From NCBI RefSeq assembly GCF_022533585.1, contig NZ_CP092827.1, positions 2,334,001 to 2,398,000 of the forward strand: DNA of 64,000 nt, read 5' to 3'. The notes under the pieces were generated by a model. The model made no database searches. It worked only from the letters and a program-made list of their open reading frames with translations, and was not told the origin of the DNA. This DNA comes from Pseudomonas sp. LS.1a. GTDB lineage: Bacteria > Pseudomonadota > Gammaproteobacteria > Pseudomonadales > Pseudomonadaceae. Of the stretch, positions 5,547 through 37,962 are shown one piece after another. Numbering within the stretch: the stretch's first letter is position 1; each line of letters begins with the position of its first letter. The translations under genes were made by a program, and so were the position numbers.

Positions 5547-6905
5547 ATGAGTGAACAGCATTCGCAGACCCTTGCCTGGCAAGCGATGAGCCGCGACCAT
5601 CACCTGGCGCCGTTCAGCGATGTCAGGCAACTGGCCGAGAAAGGCCCGCGCATCATCACCTCGGCCAAGGGCGTGTACCTTTGGGACAGCGAAGGCCACA
5701 AGATTCTCGATGGCATGGCAGGCCTTTGGTGTGTGGCGGTGGGCTATGGCCGCGATGAGCTGGCCGACGTCGCCAGCCAGCAGATGAGGCAGTTGCCGTA
5801 CTACAACCTGTTCTTCCAGACTGCGCACCCGCCGGCGCTGGAACTGGCCAAGGCGATCGCCGATGTGGCCCCGCCAGGCATGAACCATGTGTTCTTCACC
5901 GGCTCCGGCTCCGAAGGCAACGATACCGTGCTGCGCATGGTCCGCCATTACTGGGCGCTCAAGGGCCAGAAGAACAAGAAGGTCATCATCGGCCGCATCA
6001 ACGGCTACCACGGCTCCACCGTGGCCGGCGCGGGCCTGGGCGGCATGAGCGGCATGCACCAGCAGGGCGGGCTGATCCCGGATATCGTGCACATCCCGCA
6101 GCCGTACTGGTATGGCGAAGGCGGCGACATGGCCGAGGCCGACTTCGGCGTGTGGGCGGCCGAACAGCTGGAGAAGAAGATCCTCGAAGTTGGCGTGGAC
6201 AATGTCGCCGCCTTCATCGCAGAACCGATTCAGGGCGCTGGTGGGGTGATCATTCCGCCGCAGACCTACTGGCCGAAGGTGAAGGAGATCCTCGCCAGGT
6301 ACGACATCCTGTTCGTCGCCGACGAAGTGATCTGCGGCTTTGGCCGTACCGGCGAGTGGTTCGGCAGCGACTACTACGACCTCAAGCCCGACCTGATGAC
6401 CATCGCCAAGGGCCTTACCTCCGGCTACATCCCCATGGGCGGCGTGATCGTGCGTGACGAAGTGGCCAAGGTCATCAGCGAAGGCGGTGACTTCAACCAC
6501 GGTTTCACCTATTCCGGCCACCCTGTGGCGGCTGCGGTGGGCCTGGAGAACCTGCGGATCTTGCGTGACGAACAGATCATCGAACAGGTGCACGACAAAA
6601 CCGCTCCTTACCTGCAACAACGCCTGCGCGAGCTGGCCGACCACCCGCTGGTAGGCGAAGTGCGCGGCCTGGGCATGCTCGGCGCGATCGAGCTGGTGAA
6701 AGACAAGGCCACCCGCGCCCGCTACGAAAGCAAAGGTATTGGCATGATCTGTCGCCAGCACTGCTTCGACAACGGCCTGATCATGCGTGCGGTGGGCGAC
6801 ACCATGATCATCGCGCCGCCGCTGGTGATCAGCATCGAGGAGATTGACGAACTGGTGGAAAAAGCCCGCAAGTGCCTGGACCTGACGTACGAGGCTGTTC
6901 GGTAA
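5547..6905 (+). CDS. spuC: Class III pyridoxal-phosphate aminotransferase (polyamine:pyruvate, SpuC-like)
   Basis: This 452-residue enzyme is full length for class III aminotransferases. The phosphate-binding [11 protein letters not shown], the acidic [13 protein letters not shown], and the PLP lysine in [10 protein letters not shown] are all present. SpuC-type enzymes pass the amino group of putrescine, spermidine or related amines to pyruvate in the cytoplasm. The ATG at 5547 has GGAG eight bases upstream; a GTG nine bases earlier is in frame but less likely. The neighbours support a polyamine role, but other omega-amines such as beta-alanine are possible substrates in this family. Confidence 0.85.
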
Positions 6906-22191: not shown

Positions 22192-22857
22192 TCAGCGGCG
22201 CAGGTAATCACCGAAATCGATATCACCGGCACTGAGGATGGCCTGCACCCGGTTGTGCACGTTGAGTTTGCGCAGGATCGCCGAAACGTGGGCCTTGACC
22301 GTGGTCTCGGCGATATCCAGGGTGTAGGCGATCTGCTTGTTCGATTCGCCCTTGGTCATGCGCTCGAGCACCAGCAACTGCTTGCGGGTCAAGGCCTGGA
22401 GCATCTCCGGCGGGAAGCTCGGGGCATCGCTCAGGCGCCGGCTGGTGCTGCTTTTCTGAGCGCGGATGATATCGGGCGGCAGGTAGACATTGCCGTTGAG
22501 GATCTGCTCGATCGCTTCGATCATCTGTGAGCGTGGCGAGGACTTGGTGATGAAACCCACCGCACCGTAGGTGATGGCCTGCAGCACGATCTGCTTTTCC
22601 TGCTCGGCCGAAACGATCACCACCGGCGTGGTCGGTGCCTCGTTGCGCAGGGTGATCAGGCCATTGAGGCCATGCATGCCGGGCATGTTCAGGTCGAGCA
22701 GGATCAGGTCGAGGTCGTCGTGCTCGTGGGTCAGCGCCAGGGCACTGTCCAGGTCGGCAGTTTCCATGACTTCGCTGCCCTGGAAACCATCGCTGATAAC
22801 GTTGTGGATGGCTTCGCGAAACAGGGGGTGATCGTCGGCAATCAGAATTTTGTACAT
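22192..22857 (-). CDS. pedR1: LuxR-family response regulator PedR1 (AgmR/ErbR-type)
   Basis: This 221-residue response regulator has a receiver domain with the phosphorylated D55 in [10 protein letters not shown] and a C-terminal LuxR helix-turn-helix ([52 protein letters not shown]). AgmR/ErbR proteins activate PQQ-dependent alcohol oxidation genes and PQQ synthesis. Its position opposite the hybrid kinase supports this. The gene stands alone on the minus strand and has AGGTGAAAAGGCC before the ATG. Its likely DNA targets are the CCAAAGTAG boxes reported here. Confidence 0.9.
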
Positions 22858-27454: not shown

Positions 27455-27474
27455 TACCAAGGTAGTAATTCGCC
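27455..27474. promoter_or_regulatory. CCAAGGTAGTAATTCG box in the pedA1/pedS2 divergent gap
   Basis: TACCAAGGTAGTAATTCGCC lies 53 bases before pedS2 and 80 bases before pedA1, and matches the boxes at 18983, 32366 and 39750. It probably serves both divergent promoters. Confidence 0.5.
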
Positions 27475-27527
27475 ACGCGGGCCCGGGTTTTACGATGGGC
27501 CGCAGCACCCTCGGAGGAGAACCGCCC

Positions 27528-28802
27528 ATGCGCCTTGTCAACCTGTCGGCCCTGTGGCGGATCAACCTCTGGGTCACGTGTTGCTTCGCGCTGGTGACGC
27601 TGGCTTGTGCCGGGGTGCTGTTGCATCAGGCGGTGGCTGATGTGGAGCGGGAGTTGCAGTCGGCCGAGGCCGTAGTGGCGTACCTCGGCGACACCGCCGA
27701 GCGCGACCCGCAGCGCCTGCAACCACGGCTGACGCAAAGCCTGCGCCATGTGCGGGTGCACTGGCTGGCGGCGGATGAGGCAGCGCGGCTGCCGCAAGAG
27801 GCCGGCCTGGATGCCTGGCTGGGCCGCCAATTGCTTGGCCAGCGCCACGGCAGCAGCCGGCTGCTGGAACTGGGTGACGGCCGCCGGGTAGTGATCGCCG
27901 TGGATGCCCGGGATGAAATCGACGAGGTCCGCGACTCCCTGCAGCAGCTGTTGGTCCTGTGCGGCCTGGCGTTGTTGCTGAGCTTGTTGACCATCCGCTG
28001 GGCGGTGCGGCGGGGCATGGGCTTGCTGGACGATCTGCTGCAGGCCTTGCGCCAGGTCTCGGGCGGCCAATTGACCACTCGCCTGCGCGAGGCCGGCCTG
28101 CCGGAGGCGCGCCAGCTGGCGGAGCACTTCAACCGCATGACCGCGTCTCTGGAGCAGGCCCGGGCCGACAATACCCAACTGACCCAGGCCCTGCTGGCGG
28201 TGCAGGAGCAGGAGCGCACTCAGCTGGCGCAGACCCTGCACGACGACCTTGGGCAATACCTGGCGGGTATTCGCGCCCAACTCTGCCTGCTGCGCATGGT
28301 GGCCGACCAGCCCACCATGGTGGCGCAGACGACACGTGCCCTGGAGCTCGATTGCGAACGCCTGCAGCAGGGTTTTCGCGCCTTGGTACACGACCTGTAT
28401 CCGCTGGCGTTGCAACACATGCCGCTGGCCGAAGCCTTTGGCCTGCTGGTGAGCCAATGGCAGGCCAGCCAGGGTATCGAATGCCGCCTGCGGGTCGGCG
28501 AGCAGCTGCCGGTGCTGCCCGGGGCGAGCCGCACGCATTTGTATCGCTTGCTGCAGGAGGCGTTGACCAACGTTGCCCGGCACGCCGGCGCCAGCCAGGT
28601 GCGGGTGCGCCTGCAACGCAGCGCCAAGGGCTTGCGCCTGCTGGTTCGCGACAACGGTTGTGGCGCGAGCCAGCCCCAGCGCCCCGGGGTAGGCCTGCAC
28701 TCGATGGCCGAGCGCGCCCGCAGCCTGGGCGGTGAACTGCGCATCCTCAGCCGCCCGGGTGCCGGCTGGGCGCTGGCCCTGAACATTCCTATGGAGGTGT
28801 GA
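27528..28802 (+). CDS. pedS2: Membrane sensor histidine kinase PedS2
   Basis: This 424-residue kinase has a first membrane segment at residues 13-33, a periplasmic sensor of about 105 residues, a second segment at 140-157, a HAMP-like linker, an HisKA_3 H-box with H238 in LAQTLHDDLGQYL, and an HATPase_c domain (LTNVARHAGA, DNGCGA). PedS2 is known in KT2440 as the sensor for lanthanides that decides between PedE and PedH. A cluster of acidic residues (D126-D136 in AVDARDEIDEVRDS) just outside the second membrane segment is a candidate metal contact. Its stop overlaps the pedR2 start. GGAGGA precedes the ATG. Confidence 0.9.
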   Translation: MRLVNLSALWRINLWVTCCFALVTLACAGVLLHQAVADVERELQSAEAVVAYLGDTAERDPQRLQPRLTQSLRHVRVHWLAADEAARLPQEAGLDAWLGRQLLGQRHGSSRLLELGDGRRVVIAVDARDEIDEVRDSLQQLLVLCGLALLLSLLTIRWAVRRGMGLLDDLLQALRQVSGGQLTTRLREAGLPEARQLAEHFNRMTASLEQARADNTQLTQALLAVQEQERTQLAQTLHDDLGQYLAGIRAQLCLLRMVADQPTMVAQTTRALELDCERLQQGFRALVHDLYPLALQHMPLAEAFGLLVSQWQASQGIECRLRVGEQLPVLPGASRTHLYRLLQEALTNVARHAGASQVRVRLQRSAKGLRLLVRDNGCGASQPQRPGVGLHSMAERARSLGGELRILSRPGAGWALALNIPMEV

Positions 28803-29440
28803 TGAATATCGTATTGGTCGATGACCACGCCGTGGTCCGCCAGGGCTATGCCAGCCTGCTGCGGGCGGTGCTGCCGACAATACAGGTGCGTGAGGCTGCC
28901 AGTGGCGAAGAGGCGCTGGCCCGGGTTCAGGAGCAAGTGCCCAACCTGGTGATAATGGACTTTGGCCTGCCAGGCATCAGCGGCCTGGAAACCACCCGGC
29001 GCCTGCGTCAGCGCCTGCCGCAGCTGCGAGTGCTGTTCTTCAGCATGCATGACGAGCTGCCGCTGGTGCGCCAGGCACTGGACGCGGGGGCCTCGGGTTA
29101 CCTGACCAAGAACTCGGCACCCGAAGTGCTGATCGAGGCGGTGCAGCGAGTGTTGGCCGGGCATGCCTATATCGAACAGCCTTTGGCCACCCAGCTGGCC
29201 TGTACCTCACAGCAGAGCGCCAGTGACCCGCGCCTGCAGCGCATGACCCAGCGTGAGCTGGAGATTTTCGTGATGCTGGCCAAGGGTACACCGGTGCGGG
29301 GGATTGCCGAGCAGCTGTGCATCAGCGCCAAGACCGTGTCCAACCACCTGACCGTGCTCAAGAGCAAGTTGCAGGTCAGCTCCCATGCCGAGCTGGTGCA
29401 CCTGGGGATTGATCTGGGGGTGGTGCGGGTGGCGGGGTGA
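28802..29440 (+). CDS. pedR2: LuxR-family response regulator PedR2
   Basis: This is a 212-residue regulator with a receiver domain whose phospho-acceptor is D53 (LVIMDFGLPG) and a LuxR HTH (MTQRELEIFVMLAKGTPVRGIAEQLCISAKTVSNHLTVLKSKL). In KT2440 PedR2 activates pedE and represses pedH when lanthanide is absent. The start codon overlaps the kinase stop (TGATG). Its operator is not known to me. The palindromes at 32279-32305 and 36057-36084, found before exactly those two genes, are the best candidates in this window. Confidence 0.9.
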   Translation: MNIVLVDDHAVVRQGYASLLRAVLPTIQVREAASGEEALARVQEQVPNLVIMDFGLPGISGLETTRRLRQRLPQLRVLFFSMHDELPLVRQALDAGASGYLTKNSAPEVLIEAVQRVLAGHAYIEQPLATQLACTSQQSASDPRLQRMTQRELEIFVMLAKGTPVRGIAEQLCISAKTVSNHLTVLKSKLQVSSHAELVHLGIDLGVVRVAG

Positions 29441-30309: not shown

Positions 30310-32205
30310 TCAACGCTGTGCAGTCTTGTTGTCCCAGCTGGGGATCTTGAACACCCAGAACGAACCGCCCTGGGCTACCGGCTTGGTCAGCTCGGCCATG
30401 TCGCCGCCCCACAGCGGCACCGCACCGCCGTAGCCCACGGTCACGCCGATGTACTGCTCGCCGTCCTGCTCCCAGGTGATCGGCGGCGAGACGATGCCGC
30501 TGCCGGTCTGGAACTTCCACAGCTCCTTGCCCGTTTTGGCGTCGAAGGCCTTGAAGAAACCGTCGCCGGTGCCGGTGAACACCAGGTTGCCCTTGGTCGC
30601 CAGCACGCCGGCCCACAGCGGCAGGTGCTCCTTGTGCTCCCACACCAGCTTGCCGGTGGTCGGGTCCATGGCGCGGAGGGTGCCGACGTGATCGTCATAC
30701 ATGCGCTTGATGCGGAAGCCCATGCCCAGGTAGGCCGAACCCTTCTTGTAGTTCACTTCCTCGGTCCAGTACTCCTCCTTCCACTGGTTGCCGGGGATGT
30801 AGAACAGGCCGGTGTCCTGGCTGTAGGCCATGGGGTTCCAGTTCTTGCCGCCAAGGAACGGTGGCGAGACCTCCACCGGCTTGCCCTTGGTTTCGCCCGG
30901 CAGCGGTTTGGCCGGGCGCTGCTCGGGGTTCTCCACCGGGCGCCCGGTCTTGAGGTCGATGTGGCTGGCCCAGGTGATGTTGTCTACGAAGGGGAAGGCG
31001 TTCTGCAGTTTGCCGTTGCTACGGTCCACCACATAGAAGAAACCGTTGCGGTCGGCGTGGGCGGTGGCCTTGACCTGCTTGCCATCCTTGTCCTTGTAGT
31101 CGAACAGCACCAGCTCGTTGTTGCCGGAGAAATCCCAGGCATCATTGGGCGTGTGCTGGTAGAACCACTTCACCTCGCCGGTGCTCGGGTCGACGCCGAC
31201 CTGCCCTGAGGTATACAGGCTGTCGAAGTCCTGCGGGTTGCCATCCTTCGAGGTGCGCGCCCAGGTGTTCCAGGGGCCGGGGTTGCCCGCGCCGACAATG
31301 ATGGTATTGGTCTCGGGGTCGAAACTGGCGCTTTGCCAAGGGGCGCCACCGCCATGGCTCCAGGCTTCGACCTTACCGGTTTCGGTGGTGGGGTCGTCCG
31401 GCCAGGACGGTGCTTTGACGTCACCGGTCGGGGTGCTGTCCTTGCCGTTCAGGCGGCCCATGTGGCCTTCGACGAAGGGCCGCATCCACACTTCTTCGCC
31501 GGTTTCCGGGTCGCGGGCGAACAGTTGGCCGACCACGCCGAATTCATCGCCGGAGCTGCCGTGGATCAGCAGCACCTTGCCGCTGGTCTTGTCCTTGATC
31601 AGCACCGGGGCGCCGGTCATGGTGTAGCCGGCACTGTGGTCGCCGAACTTCTTGTTCCACACCACCTTGCCGGTGCGCTTGTCGAGGGCGATGACCCGCG
31701 CGTCCAGGGTGCCGAAGTAGATCTTGTCGCCGTAGATCGCCGCGCCGCGGTTGACCACGTCGCAGCAGGGGCGAATGTCATCGGGCAGGCGCGCATCGTA
31801 TTGCCACAGCTTCTTGCCGGTCCTGGCATCGAGGGCGAACACCCGCGAGTAGGAGCCGGTGACGTAGACCACGCCGTCGCTGACGATGGCCTGGGATTCC
31901 TGGCCGCGCTGCTTCTCGTCGCCGAAGGAATAGGACCAGGCCGGGGTCAGCTTGAACACGTTCTGGTCATTGACCTGGGCCAGCGGGCTCCAGCGCTGGG
32001 CGTTGGTGCCCATGCCGTACTGCAGCACGTCCTGGGTGGTCAGGTGGTCGTTGGCGATGTCTTCCCAGGTCACGTTCTTGCTGGCAGGTGCTGCTGGGGC
32101 GGTGGCCGCCGTGGCCGCGTTGCTCAGGGCCAGGCTACCGACCAGCAGCAAGGCCCGCACGCTCAGGGCCAGAGGGGAAAGGGCGGGTAGCGTTCTTGTT
32201 GTCAT
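30310..32205 (-). CDS. pedE: PQQ-dependent alcohol dehydrogenase PedE (calcium type)
   Basis: This is a 631-residue periplasmic quinoprotein with a signal peptide and an eight-bladed propeller. The vicinal cysteines C147-C148 (RPCCDV) that cover PQQ, metal ligand N308 (GAGNPGPW), and catalytic D358 (AWDFSG) are visible. Position 360 is serine, where lanthanide enzymes have aspartate, so this is the calcium form. It oxidises ethanol, 2-phenylethanol and other alcohols or aldehydes, and passes electrons to cytochrome PedF encoded divergently. The ATG at 32205 gives the full signal peptide. The upstream region carries the palindrome and box elements listed separately. Confidence 0.96.
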
Positions 32206-32278
32206 GGTTGCAGTTCCCAGTGGAAGTTTTGGCCTGCACAGGGTGGGGCGGGGCGGACGTTGCGGGATACGGAAAAAG

Positions 32279-32305
32279 TCCCGCCCTTGCCGGGAATAGT
32301 TCCCG
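32279..32305 (-). promoter_or_regulatory. TCCCG-N7-CGGGAA-N3-TTCCCG array before pedE: candidate PedR2 operator
   Basis: TCCCG (32279-32283), CGGGAA (32291-32296) and TTCCCG (32300-32305) lie 75-100 bases upstream of the pedE start. The same array of half-sites, with a 6-base first spacer, lies before pedH at 36057-36084. Confidence 0.6.
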
Positions 32306-32333
32306 CGGCGCACCTCATTTGGCCCTTCGCCAC

Positions 32334-32384
32334 AAGCCCTACTACCAAGGGATTAAGGCCCGGCCACCAAAGCAGCATTCGGCC
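32334..32384. promoter_or_regulatory. ped boxes in the pedE/pedF divergent gap
   Basis: AAGCCCTACTACCAAGGGATT (32334-32354) is similar to elements before pedI (37941) and pedH (35983). ACCAAAGCAGCATTCGGCC (32366-32384) is one of five CCAA(A/G)GTAG-type boxes in the cluster. The two are next to each other between the divergent pedE and pedF and could bind PedR1. Confidence 0.55.
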
Positions 32385-32459
32385 GCCTGCGGGCTGTTTC
32401 TAAGATGGCGGCACGGCCTCTGTGGTTGAGGCCTTGCGTGCAATCGTGAGGGCATAAGA

Positions 32460-32921
32460 ATGACAACAAAACGCAACGTCTTGCTGGCTGCCGGGCTGCT
32501 TGCCAGTGCAGTGCTGACCGGCACGGCCTGGGCACATGGCAATGTGGTGCCCCAGGCCGTGGAAACCCAGGGCCTGACCCCGATCAAGGACGCCGGCGTA
32601 GCCCTGGATGGCGATGGCTGGGCGGCGGTCAACCCGTACCGCAGCTCTCCCGAGCACGACAAGGCGGTGGAAATCGGCGCCTCGGCCTACAACCAGAACT
32701 GCGCCGCCTGCCATGGCCTGGAGGCCAAGTCTGGCGGTATCGCCCCGGATTTGCGCATGCTCGATGCCGGCGAGGCCGGGGATGAATGGTTCGTCGAGCG
32801 GGTACGCCACGGCGCCGTCCGCGACGGCCGGGTGTACATGCCGAAGATGGCCGACTACTTGAGCCAGGAAGCCCTGTGGGCGGTGCGCACCTACCTGGAC
32901 AGCGTGCACGTCGAGGAGTGA
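32460..32921 (+). CDS. pedF: Cytochrome c550 PedF, electron acceptor of PedE/PedH
   Basis: This 153-residue periplasmic cytochrome has a signal peptide ending TAWA. The heme-binding motif C81-A-A-C84-H85 is preceded by ASAYNQN, and the distal methionine is likely in VYMPKMADYL. It takes electrons from the PQQ dehydrogenase and passes them to the respiratory chain. It is divergent from pedE, with the substrate-binding-like gene following after five bases. The family and location assignments are firm. Confidence 0.93.
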   Translation: MTTKRNVLLAAGLLASAVLTGTAWAHGNVVPQAVETQGLTPIKDAGVALDGDGWAAVNPYRSSPEHDKAVEIGASAYNQNCAACHGLEAKSGGIAPDLRMLDAGEAGDEWFVERVRHGAVRDGRVYMPKMADYLSQEALWAVRTYLDSVHVEE

Positions 32922-32926
32922 CGGCC

Positions 32927-33802
32927 ATGCGCCTGTTGGCGGTGCTGTTCAGTACCCTGCTGCTGTGTTGCGCGGCGGCGCAGGCACAGGTGCGCAGCTA
33001 TGACGCGATCATCGCCGCCGGTGAACTGAAGGTGGCGGTGTACAAGGACTTCGCGCCCTACAGCTTCGAGGACCACGGCCAGCCACGCGGTGTCGACGTG
33101 GAACTGGCGCAGGCCCTGGCCACGGCGTTGGGGGTGCGTTTGCAGCTGGTCTGGGCGCCACCGGGGGAAAAGCTCGACGACGATCTGCGCGACTATATCT
33201 GGCGCGGCAGCCCGCTGCGTCACCAGCAACTGGCCGACCTGATGATGCGCGTGCCATACGACCACGCCTACGCGCAAAGGCGCAATGAGGTGGGCGAGTT
33301 GGAAAACGCCCAGGTGGTGATGTTCGGCCCCTATCAGGAGGAGCGCTGGCAGGTCGCCTACGATCGCCGCCGCCTGCCCTCGGTGGCCAGTGTCGCGGTG
33401 TTCCGGCAGCACCCGATCGGGGTCGAGGTGGACAGCGTGCCGTCGTTCTACCTGACTTCTGTGTTCAACGGCATGCTGAGTGCCAAAACCCATCATTACC
33501 CCAATGTGCAGCAGGCCTTCGGTGCCATGCAGGCCGGCCAGGTAGACGCGGTGATGGCGATGCGCGGCGAGGTTGACTGGCAATTGCACCAGGCCGCCGA
33601 CCCGCAACTGGCACTGGCGGAAAACGCCTACCCGAACCTTGGCAAGCAGGCCTGGGAGATCGGCATGGCGGTGCATGAAAGCAACCGGCAGCTGGCCTAT
33701 GCGGTGGAGGAGGCGCTTGAGGCGCTGATTCGTGATGGGCGGATGAAGGCGATTTATGCCAGTTACGGCCTGCGTTACCAGGTGCCGGAGATGTACCAGT
33801 AA
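32927..33802 (+). CDS. Periplasmic substrate-binding-like protein linked to quinoprotein dehydrogenase
   Basis: This 291-residue protein has a signal peptide (LLAVLFSTLLLCCAAAQA) and a type 2 periplasmic-binding fold (ELKVAVYKDFAPYSFEDHGQPRGVDVELAQALA, then SVAVFRQHPIGVEVDSVPSFYL). XoxJ/MxaJ-type proteins of this fold accompany PQQ dehydrogenases and are believed to help their activation. The ATG at 32927 gives the signal peptide; a longer frame starting inside pedF is rejected. It forms an operon with pedF. The ligand is not known. Confidence 0.87.
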   Translation: MRLLAVLFSTLLLCCAAAQAQVRSYDAIIAAGELKVAVYKDFAPYSFEDHGQPRGVDVELAQALATALGVRLQLVWAPPGEKLDDDLRDYIWRGSPLRHQQLADLMMRVPYDHAYAQRRNEVGELENAQVVMFGPYQEERWQVAYDRRRLPSVASVAVFRQHPIGVEVDSVPSFYLTSVFNGMLSAKTHHYPNVQQAFGAMQAGQVDAVMAMRGEVDWQLHQAADPQLALAENAYPNLGKQAWEIGMAVHESNRQLAYAVEEALEALIRDGRMKAIYASYGLRYQVPEMYQ

Positions 33803-33844
33803 CAAGCTGCGCAGGCTTGCGGGTTTCTAAAGGCAACACATCCT

Positions 33845-33951
33845 CCCTGTGTGAGCGGGTTCACCGAGGCGTCGAACCGCCGCGAACACCGGCGAAGCCG
33901 GTGCCATATACCGCGTCGCATTCTTCGCGGGTGAACCCGCTCCCACAGGGA
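33845..33951. repeat. REP pair before the SoxYZ-like gene
   Basis: GTGAGCGGGTTCACC... and GGGTGAACCCGCTCCCACAGGG form inverted REP units around an ACACCGGCGAAGCCGGTG hairpin. It fills the gap between two co-directional genes. Confidence 0.8.
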
Positions 33952-33996
33952 CCGCGCAAAGTCAGTGAGATCCGTGTTGATTAATGGGAGTGGGCG

Positions 33997-34764
33997 ATGA
34001 ACTGGCGAGCGACTTTCCTGCTGGCCTGCTGGGTGCCCTGGGCCGCACAGGCCCTGGCCAGCGAGCCGAGTAACCACAAGGACCCGGTACCGTCGGTAAT
34101 GTGGGACTTCTACCACAAGCAGCTGCTGGGCCAGGCCGCGTTCGTCTTCGATGACCGGGTCAAGCTGCTGGCGCCACCCTTTGCCGAAGACGCACGCCAG
34201 GTGCCGCTGGAGATCGACGCTAGGGCGTTCAGTGGCGAGGTGGTGCGGATGCTCGTCTGGGCCGAACTCAACCCGCTGCCGCGCATTGTCGACTTCCAGC
34301 CCGGCGAGCGGGTGCTGCCCTGGTTGTCGATCCGCATCCGCGTCGAACAGGCCACGCCACTGCGTGCTGCGGTGCTGACGCGCGACGGCCTGTGGCATGT
34401 CGGCTCGACCCTGATCGATGCCGCCGGTGGCGGTTGTACCGCGCCCAGCGTGGTACGCACTCAGCCCGGCTGGGAGGAGCACCTTGGCGAAGTCCTGGGC
34501 GGGCGCTACCCGCGCGGCGACAGCAGCCGCCTGCGCCTGCAGGTGGCCCATCCGATGGATAACGGCCTGGTCAGTGGTATCCCCGAATTCTTCCTCAACC
34601 ATGCCGAGCTGCAGGACGCTGACGGCCAGCGCCTGGCCAGCCTGGAACTGTACCCGGCGGTCAGCGAAAACCCCAACCTGGGCTTCGACATCCAGGGCCC
34701 CGGGCCGACCCGGTTGGTGTTGCAGGACAACAGCGGCAACCAGTTCGAGGCGGCGGTGCCCTGA
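33997..34764 (+). CDS. SoxYZ-like carrier protein associated with quinoprotein dehydrogenase
   Basis: This 255-residue exported protein (signal peptide ending AAQALA) has a SoxY-like N-terminal half containing the carrier-type cysteine in AAGGGCTAPS (the SoxY motif is GGCG(G)) and a SoxZ-like C-terminal half (RLRLQVAHPMDNGLVSGIPEFFLNHAEL). Such fusions occur beside PQQ dehydrogenases; the cysteine could carry a substrate or assembly intermediate. The metallohydrolase gene begins 40 bases later, and the two probably form a relay. The reaction is unknown. Confidence 0.83.
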   Translation: MNWRATFLLACWVPWAAQALASEPSNHKDPVPSVMWDFYHKQLLGQAAFVFDDRVKLLAPPFAEDARQVPLEIDARAFSGEVVRMLVWAELNPLPRIVDFQPGERVLPWLSIRIRVEQATPLRAAVLTRDGLWHVGSTLIDAAGGGCTAPSVVRTQPGWEEHLGEVLGGRYPRGDSSRLRLQVAHPMDNGLVSGIPEFFLNHAELQDADGQRLASLELYPAVSENPNLGFDIQGPGPTRLVLQDNSGNQFEAAVP

Positions 34765-34804
34765 GCGCGTTGCCCCACTTCATTCCTGACCCGAGGCGCC
34801 CGTC

Positions 34805-35728
34805 ATGCGTTGCATTCTGCTATTGCTGCTGTGCCTGGGCCTGCCGGCCTGGGCAGACCTGGACTATCGGCTCAAGCCCCGGCAGATCGCCGAGGGCACC
34901 TGGCTGCTGGAGGGCAGCACCGACAATTTTGCCAAGGATAACGGCGGCAATATCGTCAACACCGCGTTCATCGTCACCGACAGCGGGGTGGTGGTGATCG
35001 ACAGTGGGCCGTCGAAACGCTACGGCGAAGCCATGCGCCAGGCCATTGCCGCCACCACCGACAAGCCGGTTGTCGAAGTGCTGCTGACCCATCATCACCC
35101 TGACCATGTGCTGGGCAACCAGGCCTTTGCCGATGTACCCATCGGCGCCCTGGCCGGTACCCGCGAGCTGTTGCGCCAGCAGGGCGAGGCCATGGCCGAG
35201 AACATGTACCGCCTGGTCGGCGACTGGATGCGCGGGACCGAGGTGGTGCTGCCGACCCGGGTGCTGGAGCCGGGTATTCATGAGGTGGGCGGGCACCGCC
35301 TGCGGCTGCTGGCGCTGGGCGGGCACACCGGTGCCGACCTGGCGATTCTGGATGAAAACACCGGCGTGCTGTTCGCCGGTGACCTGGTGTTTTACGAGCG
35401 CGCGCTGACCACGCCCAACAGCCCGGGGCTGGAGGTGTGGCTGAAGGACCTGGACACCTTGCAAGCGCTGCCCTGGAAGCAGCTGGTACCCGGGCATGGC
35501 CCGCTGGCCAGCGATGCCCGGCCGTTTGCCCAGATGCGTGACTACCTGGGCTGGCTGGATGGGCTGATGCGTGACGGCGCGGCGCGTGGCGACGACATGG
35601 CCGAGATGATCCGCAGCCCGATACCCGAACGGTTTGCCGGTATCAGCCTGACCCGTTACGAGCTGATTCGCAGTGTCAGCCACCTGTATCCCCGTTACGA
35701 ACGCCAGCAGCTGCGGCGCTTGCCGTGA
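34805..35728 (+). CDS. Metallo-beta-lactamase fold hydrolase of the quinoprotein relay
   Basis: This 307-residue exported protein has a signal peptide ([13 protein letters not shown]) and the metal motif THHHPDH (HxHxDH), plus later GGHTGADL and PGHGPL that supply further ligands. It probably binds two zinc ions in the periplasm. The family is named for its co-occurrence with the SoxYZ-like carrier and PQQ enzymes; the substrate may be a thioester or ester formed on the carrier cysteine (inference). A large inverted repeat follows it before pedH. Confidence 0.85.
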
Positions 35729-35747
35729 GATTTTCTGCGCCTTCGAG

Positions 35748-35964
35748 ATCGAGCGCCGCCCGCGTGGCGCATCGCGAGCAAGCTCGCTCCTACATCTGTT
35801 TCGGGCCAGTAACGCCTGCGCCGACGCGCGCGACCGCCTTGCTTGTCCCTCTCGATATCGAGGTGAACGCCAAGAGACCGCGCGCCTCTGCCTCAGGATC
35901 AATTGGCCCGAAACAAATGTAGGAGCGAGCTTGCTCGCGATGCGCCGCGCGGGCGGCGCTCGAT
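35748..35964. repeat. 61-bp inverted repeat with 95-bp spacer upstream of pedH
   Basis: Arms 35748-35808 and 35904-35964 match at 59 of 61 positions in inverted orientation. Each contains the REP-like core GCGAGCAAGCTCGCTCCTACA, a different class from the other REPs here. The spacer contains the palindrome CTCGATATCGAG. The rest of the 385-base gap holds the pedH promoter elements. Confidence 0.88.
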
Positions 35965-36056
35965 ATGCGCACCAACCCAAATCCCAAGCCCCATACCAAG
36001 GAACTAGAAAACTCCGCACTGCGGGCAATTGTTGGCAAGCAGGTCGGGACCAAGAA

Positions 36057-36084
36057 TTCCCGACACACCGGGAAGTTTTCCCGG
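36057..36084 (+). promoter_or_regulatory. TTCCCG-N6-CGGGAA-N3-TTCCCG array before pedH: candidate PedR2 operator
   Basis: TTCCCG (36057-36062), CGGGAA (36069-36074) and TTCCCG (36078-36083) form two overlapping palindromes; the second extends to CCGGGAA-N3-TTCCCGG. It ends 30 bases before the pedH ATG, a position suited to repression. Confidence 0.6.
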
Positions 36085-36113: not shown

Positions 36114-37898
36114 ATGACCCGATCCCCACGTCGTCCCGTGTTCGCCTTGAGCCTGGTGCTCAGCGCCATGCTGCTTGCCGGCGCGGCCCACGCCGCTGTC
36201 AGCAATGAAGAAATTCTCCAGGACCCGAAGAACCCGCAGCAGATCGTGACCAATGGCCTGGGCGTGCAGGGCCAACGCTACAGCCCGCTGAACCTGCTCA
36301 ATACCGACAACGTCAAGGACCTGCGACCGGTCTGGGCGTTTTCCTTTGGTGGCGAGAAGCAGCGCGGCCAGCAGGCCCAGCCGCTGGTCAAGGATGGGGT
36401 GATGTACCTGACCGGCTCCTACTCGCGGGTGTTCGCCGTGGACGCCCGTACCGGCAAGAAGCTGTGGCAATACGATGCGCGCCTGCCCGATGACATTCGC
36501 CCGTGCTGTGACGTGATCAACCGCGGCGTGGCACTGTACGGCGACCTGGTGTTCTTCGGCACCCTTGACGCCAAGCTGGTGGCGCTGAACAAGGACACCG
36601 GCAAGGTGGTATGGAGCAAGAAGGTGGCCGACCACAAGGAAGGTTACTCCATCAGTGCTGCGCCGATGATCGTCAACGGCAAGCTGATCACTGGCGTCGC
36701 CGGTGGCGAGTTTGGCGTGGTGGGCAAGATCCAGGCCTACAACCCGGAAAACGGCGAACTGCTGTGGATGCGCCCGACCGTGGAAGGGCACATGGGTTAC
36801 GTGTACAAGGACGGCAAGGCGATCGAGAATGGCATTTCCGGCGGCGAGGCGGGCAAGACCTGGCCCGGCGACCTGTGGAAGACCGGCGGTGCGGCGCCAT
36901 GGCTTGGCGGTTACTACGACCCGGAAACCAACCTGATCCTGTTCGGCACCGGCAACCCGGCACCGTGGAACTCGCACCTGCGCCCGGGCGACAACCTGTA
37001 TTCCTCGTCGCGCCTGGCCCTGAACCCGGACGATGGCACCATCAAGTGGCACTTCCAGAGCACGCCGCATGACGGCTGGGACTTCGACGGCGTCAACGAG
37101 CTGATTTCGTTCAACTACAAGGACGGCGGCAAAGAGGTCAAGGCCGCCGCCACTGCCGACCGCAACGGCTTCTTCTACGTGCTGGACCGCACCAACGGCA
37201 AGTTCATCCGCGGCTTCCCCTTCGTCGACAAGATCACCTGGGCCACCGGCCTGGACAAGGATGGCCGGCCGATCTACAACGAAGCCAGCCGGCCGGGGGC
37301 GCCGGGTAGCGAGGCCAAGGGCAGTTCGGTGTTCGTCGCCCCGGCGTTCCTCGGTGCCAAGAACTGGATGCCGATGGCCTACAACAAGGACACCGGGCTG
37401 TTCTACGTGCCTTCCAACGAGTGGGGCATGGACATCTGGAACGAAGGCATCGCCTACAAGAAGGGCGCGGCGTTCCTCGGCGCCGGCTTCACCATCAAGC
37501 CGCTCAACGAAGACTACATCGGCGTGCTGCGCGCCATCGACCCGGTCAGCGGCAAGGAAGTGTGGCGCCACAAGAACTATGCGCCGCTGTGGGGCGGAGT
37601 GCTGACCACCAAGGGCAACCTGGTGTTCACCGGTACGCCGGAAGGCTTCCTGCAGGCGTTCAACGCCAAGACCGGCGACAAGGTCTGGGAGTTCCAGACC
37701 GGCTCCGGCGTGCTCGGCTCGCCAGTCACCTGGGAAATGGACGGCGAACAGTACGTTTCGGTGGTTTCCGGCTGGGGCGGTGCGGTGCCGCTGTGGGGCG
37801 GCGAAGTGGCCAAGCGGGTCAAGGATTTCAACCAGGGCGGCATGCTCTGGACCTTCAAGCTGCCCAAGCAACTGCAAACGGCAAGCGCCAGTCGCTAA
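36114..37898 (+). CDS. pedH: PQQ-dependent alcohol dehydrogenase PedH (lanthanide type)
   Basis: This is a 594-residue periplasmic quinoprotein. The signal peptide ends AAHA. C131-C132 (RPCCDV), E199 (GGEF), N281 (GTGNPAPW), D323 and D325 (GWDFDG) are all visible. The extra aspartate D325 is the mark of lanthanide-dependent enzymes, and the five residues correspond to the metal and PQQ site known for KT2440 PedH. It oxidises alcohols and aldehydes when La, Ce, Pr, Nd or similar ions are present. It stands alone with its own promoter, behind a large inverted repeat and the CGGGAA/TTCCCG array, and ends before a terminator. Confidence 0.97.
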
Positions 37899-37940: not shown

Positions 37941-37957
37941 GGCCCTACTACCAAATG
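37941..37957 (+). promoter_or_regulatory. GGCCCTACTACCAAATG box upstream of pedI
   Basis: The element matches GCCCTACTACCAAG in the pedE/pedF gap and lies about 104 bases before the aldehyde dehydrogenase start. It overlaps the right arm of a hairpin formed by GCCGCTTG (37910) and CAAGCGGC (37936). Confidence 0.45.
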
Positions 37958-37962
37958 ACGAG

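Follow-up and report, generated by a model that had tools for sequence, protein, structure and literature searches.

A 15-bp dyad before pedE and pedH as the predicted operator of the rare-earth switch regulator PedR2 in Pseudomonas

The window analyzed here is a stretch of 64,000 nucleotides from Pseudomonas sp. LS.1a (contig NZ_CP092827.1, positions 2,334,001 to 2,398,000) that carries the ped gene cluster. Two promoters of this cluster, those of the alcohol dehydrogenase genes pedE and pedH, share a 15-bp dyad, CGGGAA-N3-TTCCCG (CGGGAANNNTTCCCG). We predict that this dyad is the operator of the LuxR/NarL-type response regulator PedR2, with a probability of roughly 85%. The prediction draws on four properties of the dyad: it is exclusive to these two promoters in the genome, it holds a near-fixed position at both of them, it is absent from the pedS2R2 promoter, and the constraint on it is lost after the loss of PedR2. 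In Pseudomonas putida KT2440, genetics showed that phosphorylated PedR2 activates pedE and represses pedH when no lanthanide is present (PMC6115532). An upstream dyad at pedE and a dyad at the presumed start site of pedH agree with this published activation and repression.

The ped cluster of the window is syntenic with that of KT2440 and contains pedR1, transporter genes, pedS2-pedR2, pedD, pedE, pedF, pedG, and pedH. The gene names follow synteny with the KT2440 gene table in PMC12997753. As in the PedS2/PedR2 rare-earth switch, pedS2, pedR2, pedE, and pedH all lie within one cluster. PedR2 matches the domains PF00072 and PF00196, both over the cut-off.

The dyad in the genome and across Pseudomonas

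The exact dyad occurs twice in the window, and these two copies are the only ones in the whole genome of the strain (5,748,595 bases). The reversed pattern of the dyad, which served as the control, does not occur at all. With one mismatch permitted, the whole genome gave 12 dyad sites and 18 control sites, so there is no added enrichment. All ten one-mismatch genome sites fall inside protein genes with Pfam matches, including those of the elongation factor G, carbamoyl-phosphate synthase, ribonuclease E/G, and aldehyde dehydrogenase families, and none is credible as a further operator. A long open frame alone cannot mark a site as coding, since open frames of 520 and 639 codons also cover the two true sites. 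The original prediction had seen the palindrome only before pedE and pedH in the window, and this exclusivity extends to the genome, where no credible copy stands at an unrelated promoter.

Conservation was followed in the best 80 of 221 Pseudomonas PedR2 loci found by a scan with PedR2 (PedR2 84-99% identical; 1,519,446 bases in total), referred to here as the named loci. A script accepted start codons for pedE in 66 of these loci and for pedH in 60. The named loci hold 99 exact copies of the dyad, all of them at pedH (60) or at pedE (39, including the pedE copy of L077). Every one of the 60 pedH promoters has the exact dyad. The dyad is also found in all 66 pedE promoters, exactly in 38 and with one mismatch in 28, and 26 of these 28 have T at the first base. 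From the end of the dyad to the start codon, the distance is 28-32 nt at pedH in 58 of 60 loci and 81-86 nt at pedE in 61 of 66. A second set of 40 loci was fetched around PedR2 proteins that are mostly 66-87% identical; a pedE start is present in 36, and each of the 36 has the dyad with zero to two mismatches (L180, with two, was read by eye from the sequence). The pedS2R2 promoter has no operator in any of 71 named loci, and its best match has at least three mismatches.

A sample of 199 Pseudomonas genomes, taken evenly out of a larger group, gave 91 exact copies in 66 genomes with PedR2 and 67 in 133 genomes without it; the control pattern occurred 26 and 61 times, respectively. Seventeen genomes have PedR2 without PedH. 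The pedE site is present in 16 of them with zero to two mismatches, and no PedE was found in G076. One exact copy that recurs in other Pseudomonas genomes, CGGGAAATGTTCCCG or its complement, falls within a gene for a DUF2170 protein (one member tested) and is a coincidence rather than an operator. It lies in one conserved coding frame at 1501-1515 of L006, L009, L011, L012, L020, L026, L027, and L031.

The original prediction described a larger unit, an array of three half-sites common to both promoters. At pedE, the array TCCCG (32279-32283)-N7-CGGGAA (32291-32296)-N3-TTCCCG (32300-32305) lies at the coordinates first given, inside the divergent pedE/pedF intergenic region and upstream of the gene start, with 85 nt between the dyad and the ATG. 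At pedH, the layout TTCCCG (36057-36062)-N6-CGGGAA-N3-TTCCCG, its start at 36057, and the gap of 30 nt to the ATG are all correct, and its end is at 36083 rather than at 36084. The 15-bp dyad is indeed common to both promoters. The extra half-site lies between the dyad and the gene at pedE, and beyond the dyad, away from the gene, at pedH. The pedE half-site, CGGGA (32279-32283), belongs to an imperfect second dyad, CGGGAnTTTTTCCGT, and is kept at the 7-base spacing in 65 of 66 named loci, whereas the pedH half-site is found at the same 6-base spacing in only 9 of 60. The three-half-site array is ruled out as a shared unit, because its third half-site is conserved at pedE only. What the two promoters share is thus a single 15-bp dyad, and pedE has in addition a specific second site 22 bp nearer the gene.

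Natural loss of PedR2 and the fate of the pedH dyad

Among the 199 genomes, PedR2 is present in 66, PedE in 67, and PedH in 72. PedE and PedR2 co-occur in 65 genomes; the exceptions are G035, G133, and G076, with assemblies of about 530, 140, and 650 contigs. PedH is found without PedR2 in 23 genomes. G035 and G133 were classed as PedR2-positive because pedE is present and the assemblies are fragmented, and this leaves 21 PedR2-negative genomes. Nineteen of the 21 stretches have pedA1 next to pedF and lack the pedS2-pedR2-pedD-pedE block, apart from a PedS2 remnant in G040; the other two are too short. PedR1 could be seen in 14 stretches, and the remaining ones do not reach pedR1 or show none. 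Dollo counting on the PedH nucleotide tree gives nine losses of the block, and the protein tree gives 11 state changes, 8 of which are forced by well-supported branches. Eight of the PedR2-negative genomes were first met through exact-site matches, which is a biased route; all PedH-bearing genomes of the sample were then taken.

Six of the 21 PedR2-negative genomes have an altered pedH operator, compared with 1 of 51 PedR2-positive genomes (G013; Fisher p = 0.002). The six altered 15-mers are all different. They contain four core changes, namely T10-to-C in three genomes (G137, G002, and G060) and three others seen once each. Changes were then placed on the PedH nucleotide tree, which held 67 of the 72 PedH-bearing genomes. 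The omitted genomes were G128, G005, G167, and G049, which are PedR2-positive with the exact site, and G013, which is PedR2-positive with one mismatch. The 12 core columns of the dyad were tested against two other sets from the same promoters, the background columns and the -35, -10, and box columns.

No core change fell on PedR2-positive branches (length 3.42), and six fell on PedR2-negative branches (length 1.42; binomial p = 6e-4). The difference persisted against background columns, with 263 changes on PedR2-positive and 70 on PedR2-negative branches (Fisher p = 1e-4), and against the -35, -10, and box columns, with 13 and 8 changes (p = 0.016). When G013 was entered as one PedR2-positive change, p was 0.003. 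Branches strictly after the loss carry five core changes, compared with 7.7 expected at the background rate (P = 0.22). The rates after the loss, per column and unit length, are 0.53 for the core, 0.81 for the background, and 0.18 for the -10 plus box columns, the last from two changes. These results show, from few events, that conservation of the operator depends on the pedS2-pedR2-pedD-pedE block and that detectable constraint is lost once the block is gone.

The loci that lost this block and kept pedH are L193-L200, L233, L235-L241, L243, L245, and L246. A deletion scar is visible in L197 at 6022-6237, where a 57-residue remnant of PedS2 lies beside an exact dyad upstream of pedF, and pedE and pedR2 are gone.

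Promoter placement, proposed mechanism, and alternatives

The best conserved candidate for the pedH promoter is TTGTTG-17-AAGAAT. If its -10 is correct, the pedH operator would span about +6 to +20. The pedE operator would lie upstream of the core promoter, with its center near -41 or near -65, according to which of the conserved blocks serves as the -10. Centers near -41 and -65 are both usual for activators. The original prediction had put the palindrome forward as a candidate operator of PedR2, with a placement suited to activation at pedE and to repression at pedH. The exclusivity, the near-fixed distances, the absence at pedS2R2, and the drift after loss support this assignment as far as sequence comparison reaches.

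A mechanism can be proposed on this basis. Without lanthanide, PedS2 keeps PedR2 phosphorylated, a step that has been published. At pedE, a PedR2 dimer would bind the dyad, which lies upstream of the core promoter, and would recruit RNA polymerase, probably assisted by the imperfect second dyad nearer to the gene. PedR2 bound to the identical dyad just past the presumed pedH start would block the polymerase. When lanthanide is present, PedR2 would be dephosphorylated and leave the DNA; pedE expression would drop and pedH would be released. PedR1 would provide activation at both pedE and pedH.

A second motif, TACCAAGGNANTA, has three copies genome-wide, and each stands in a ped promoter whose genes reportedly depend on PedR1. 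The first eight bases of the motif are unchanged in 66 of 67 pedE/pedF regions; among 59 pedH regions, 36 have them exactly and 19 of the other 23 differ by one change. The pedS2R2 promoter is reported to need PedR1 only, and pedE to need both PedR1 and PedR2 (PMC13390443). Since the box without the operator at pedS2R2 matches this reported need for PedR1 only, the motif is a candidate PedR1 site, an assignment based on correlation among promoters. The full dyad TACTACC-AA-GGTAGTA was rejected as the PedR1 site, as it is not enriched genome-wide (7 sites and 16 control sites with up to three mismatches) and only its 13-base core is. A genome scan did not find the exact box at other reported AgmR (PedR1) targets, such as the pqq operon.

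We lean, by a little over even odds, towards PedR2 being a dedicated two-site regulator. In this genome, its entire direct regulon would be the two dyads, which are separated by 3.8 kb, and only the position of the dyad relative to the transcription start would decide between activation and repression. Together with the candidate PedR1 box, this would constitute a two-motif grammar, with the box alone at pedS2R2, the box and an upstream dyad at pedE, and the box and a start-site dyad at pedH.

Several observations weigh against PedR2 as the regulator that reads the dyad. The exact pedH operator is retained in 15 of the 21 PedR2-negative genomes, which recent loss or a second use of the site would explain. 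T10-to-C also occurs in pedE operators of PedR2-positive genomes (for example, L181, L182, and L185), so half of the six events may be mild and need not abolish binding. The binomial probability is about 0.025 on the three non-T10 events alone (arithmetic from the branch lengths). In G013 (L157 around 14097), the sole exception among genomes counted as PedR2-positive, both the operator and the promoter of pedH are altered. After the loss, the core changes faster than the -10 plus box columns, a comparison of only five and two events, and the lost block takes pedS2, pedD, and pedE with it, not PedR2 alone. The dyad is less strictly conserved at pedE than at pedH, as the pedE copy carries one mismatch in 28 of 66 named loci and up to two in the further loci. 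A sigma-70 consensus scan found no promoter in the pedE or pedH region, so the operator positions relative to the transcription start are inferred. Published work also reports lanthanide activation of pedH without involvement of PedS2 (PMC6115532), and PedR2 therefore does not account for the entire switch at pedH. Another study observed no upregulation of pedH by lanthanides (PMC11520305).

The retained sites speak for the possibility that the dyad is bound, instead of or in addition to PedR2, by another regulator, such as PedR1 or a further activator of pedH that responds to lanthanides. Published data that allow PedR2-independent lanthanide activation of pedH (PMC6115532, PMC5487730) point in the same direction. 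PedR1 is present in 14 of the 21 PedR2-negative stretches, yet the dyad drifts after the loss at a rate that cannot be told from the background, with the -10 plus box columns slower, and the dyad is absent at the PedR1-only pedS2R2 promoter. We consider a different or second binder unlikely.

An RNA element is highly improbable. Here the pedE strand would form a terminator-like hairpin, TTCCCG-N7-CGGGA-CTTTTT, that competes with a hairpin of the dyad as in an attenuator, and the pedH dyad would be a hairpin of the 5' leader. There is a terminator-like match in the pedE direction (32279-32295, minus strand), the CGGGA and the T-run are conserved at pedE, and the dyad can fold as a hairpin of 6-7 bp. 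However, folding is no better than in shuffled sequences (z -0.62 and -0.67), the alternative hairpin partner at pedH is present in only 9 of 60 loci, and the drift after PedR2 loss would be left unexplained. The terminator-like match in the pedH region is on the strand opposite pedH. A role of the dyad as part of the core promoter, or as inherited sequence without regulatory function, would fit its near-constant distance to the start codon, but it can practically be dismissed, as spacer and flanks vary freely (263 background changes and 0 core changes on PedR2-positive branches) and the dyad is placed differently in the pedE and pedH promoters.

Known systems and neighboring features

Operators of NarL/FixJ (LuxR-type) regulators are short inverted repeats bound by a receiver-GerE dimer, which activates or represses according to position. 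The heptamers of NarL are arranged as 7-2-7. The ped dyad is likewise an inverted repeat of short half-sites, but its half-site is CGGGAA and its gap is 3 bp; the 7-2-7 arrangement more closely resembles the candidate PedR1 box.

The cluster and the regulator are the same as in the PedS2/PedR2 switch of KT2440. Regulation was established there by genetics, and the passages searched name no binding site (PMC6115532); the present analysis locates a site and compares it across genomes. EraS/EraR (ExaD/ExaE), which acts on exaA in P. aeruginosa, has an orthologous regulator with 65-66% identity and a pedE homologue as its target (PMC6115532, PMC12997753). MxaY/MxaB of Methylomicrobium buryatense is also a two-component system and controls a lanthanide switch from one type of enzyme to the other, Ca or lanthanide, although the enzymes are different (PMC5018670). 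No PedR2 binding site is named in the available parts of PMC6115532, PMC12997753, PMC13390443, PMC11520305, PMC7188995, PMC6839425, PMC5487730, and the review PMC11845868. Among the papers listed in searches on exaA/ExaE, EraR, pedE/pedH/lanthanides, and AgmR, no title or beginning of an abstract names one either; a site may have been published elsewhere, above all for exaA of P. aeruginosa. The operator is of an ordinary kind, and its identification and the loss test are new as far as the literature searched shows.

The rare-earth switch is a model of metal-controlled gene choice. A 15-bp operator in two copies makes activation at pedE and repression at pedH by one regulator testable by point mutations, and the dyad would offer a compact lanthanide-responsive part for biosensors. 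The PedR2-loss lineages display an operator that begins to drift once its predicted regulator is lost.

The coordinates of the genes, the predicted operators, and the other promoter elements in the window are collected in the table.

Table. Genes and predicted regulatory elements of the ped cluster in the window
Feature	Position	Strand	Basis or remark
pedR1 (agmR), receiver + GerE response regulator	22192..22857	-	Domains; name from KT2440 synteny
Candidate PedR1 box TACCAAGGTAGTA before pedS2R2 and pedA1	27455..27467	+	Exact in 69/71 loci; no operator beside it
pedS2, sensor histidine kinase (HAMP, HisKA_3, HATPase_c)	27495..28802	+	Domain matches
pedR2, receiver + GerE (LuxR-type) DNA-binding response regulator	28799..29440	+	Domain matches
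pedE, Ca-dependent pyrroloquinoline quinone (PQQ) alcohol dehydrogenase	30310..32205	-	Name from KT2440 synteny
Second imperfect dyad CGGGACTTTTTCCGT	32269..32283	-	pedE side of operator, center 22 bp away; 3 mismatches
pedE operator (predicted) CGGGAACTATTCCCG	32291..32305	-	Sequence on pedE strand; pedE ATG at 32205
Candidate PedR1 box TACCAAGGGATTA in pedE/pedF intergenic region	32343..32355	+	TACCAAGG in 66/67 loci
pedF, cytochrome c550	32460..32921	+	Divergent from pedE; name from KT2440 synteny
Candidate PedR1 (AgmR) box TACCAAGGAACTA before pedH	35994..36006	+	
Putative pedH -35 TTGTTG	36029..36034	+	Conserved block 17 nt before AAGAAT; variants TTGTGA, TTGCTG, others
Putative pedH -10 AAGAAT	36052..36057	+	In 67/68 PedH genome rows (G002: AAAAAT)
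Extra TTCCCG half-site before pedH dyad	36057..36062	+	Lineage-restricted
pedH operator (predicted) CGGGAAGTTTTCCCG	36069..36083	+	pedH ATG at 36114
pedH, lanthanide-dependent PQQ alcohol dehydrogenase	36114..37898	+	Name from KT2440 synteny
Box-like variant TACCAAATGACGA before pedI	37949..37961	+	Weaker, putative

Outside the genus, 273 further genomes of the class were scanned; 14 contain a PedR2 relative at E <= 1e-50, and the loci of nine of these were fetched. The exact operator was not found in these nine loci, whose PedR2 relatives are 44-79% identical. The relative with 79% identity has a pedE site with two mismatches, and the stretches of the eight relatives with 44-47% identity have no PedE or PedH match and no exact operator. 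Four one-mismatch dyads lie near these more distant relatives (L264 at 10051 and 14484, L268 at 8049, and L270 at 18327), compared with 0.42 expected from base composition. Two of the four lie a short distance upstream of a gene, which is pedA1-like in one case and pedS2-like in the other. Such sites hint that the half-site code may be older than Pseudomonas.

Between a metallo-hydrolase gene and pedH, the window also contains an inverted repeat with arms of 61 nt that are 97% complementary and 95 nt apart (35748-35808 and 35904-35964). It looks like a repetitive extragenic palindromic (REP)-type element.

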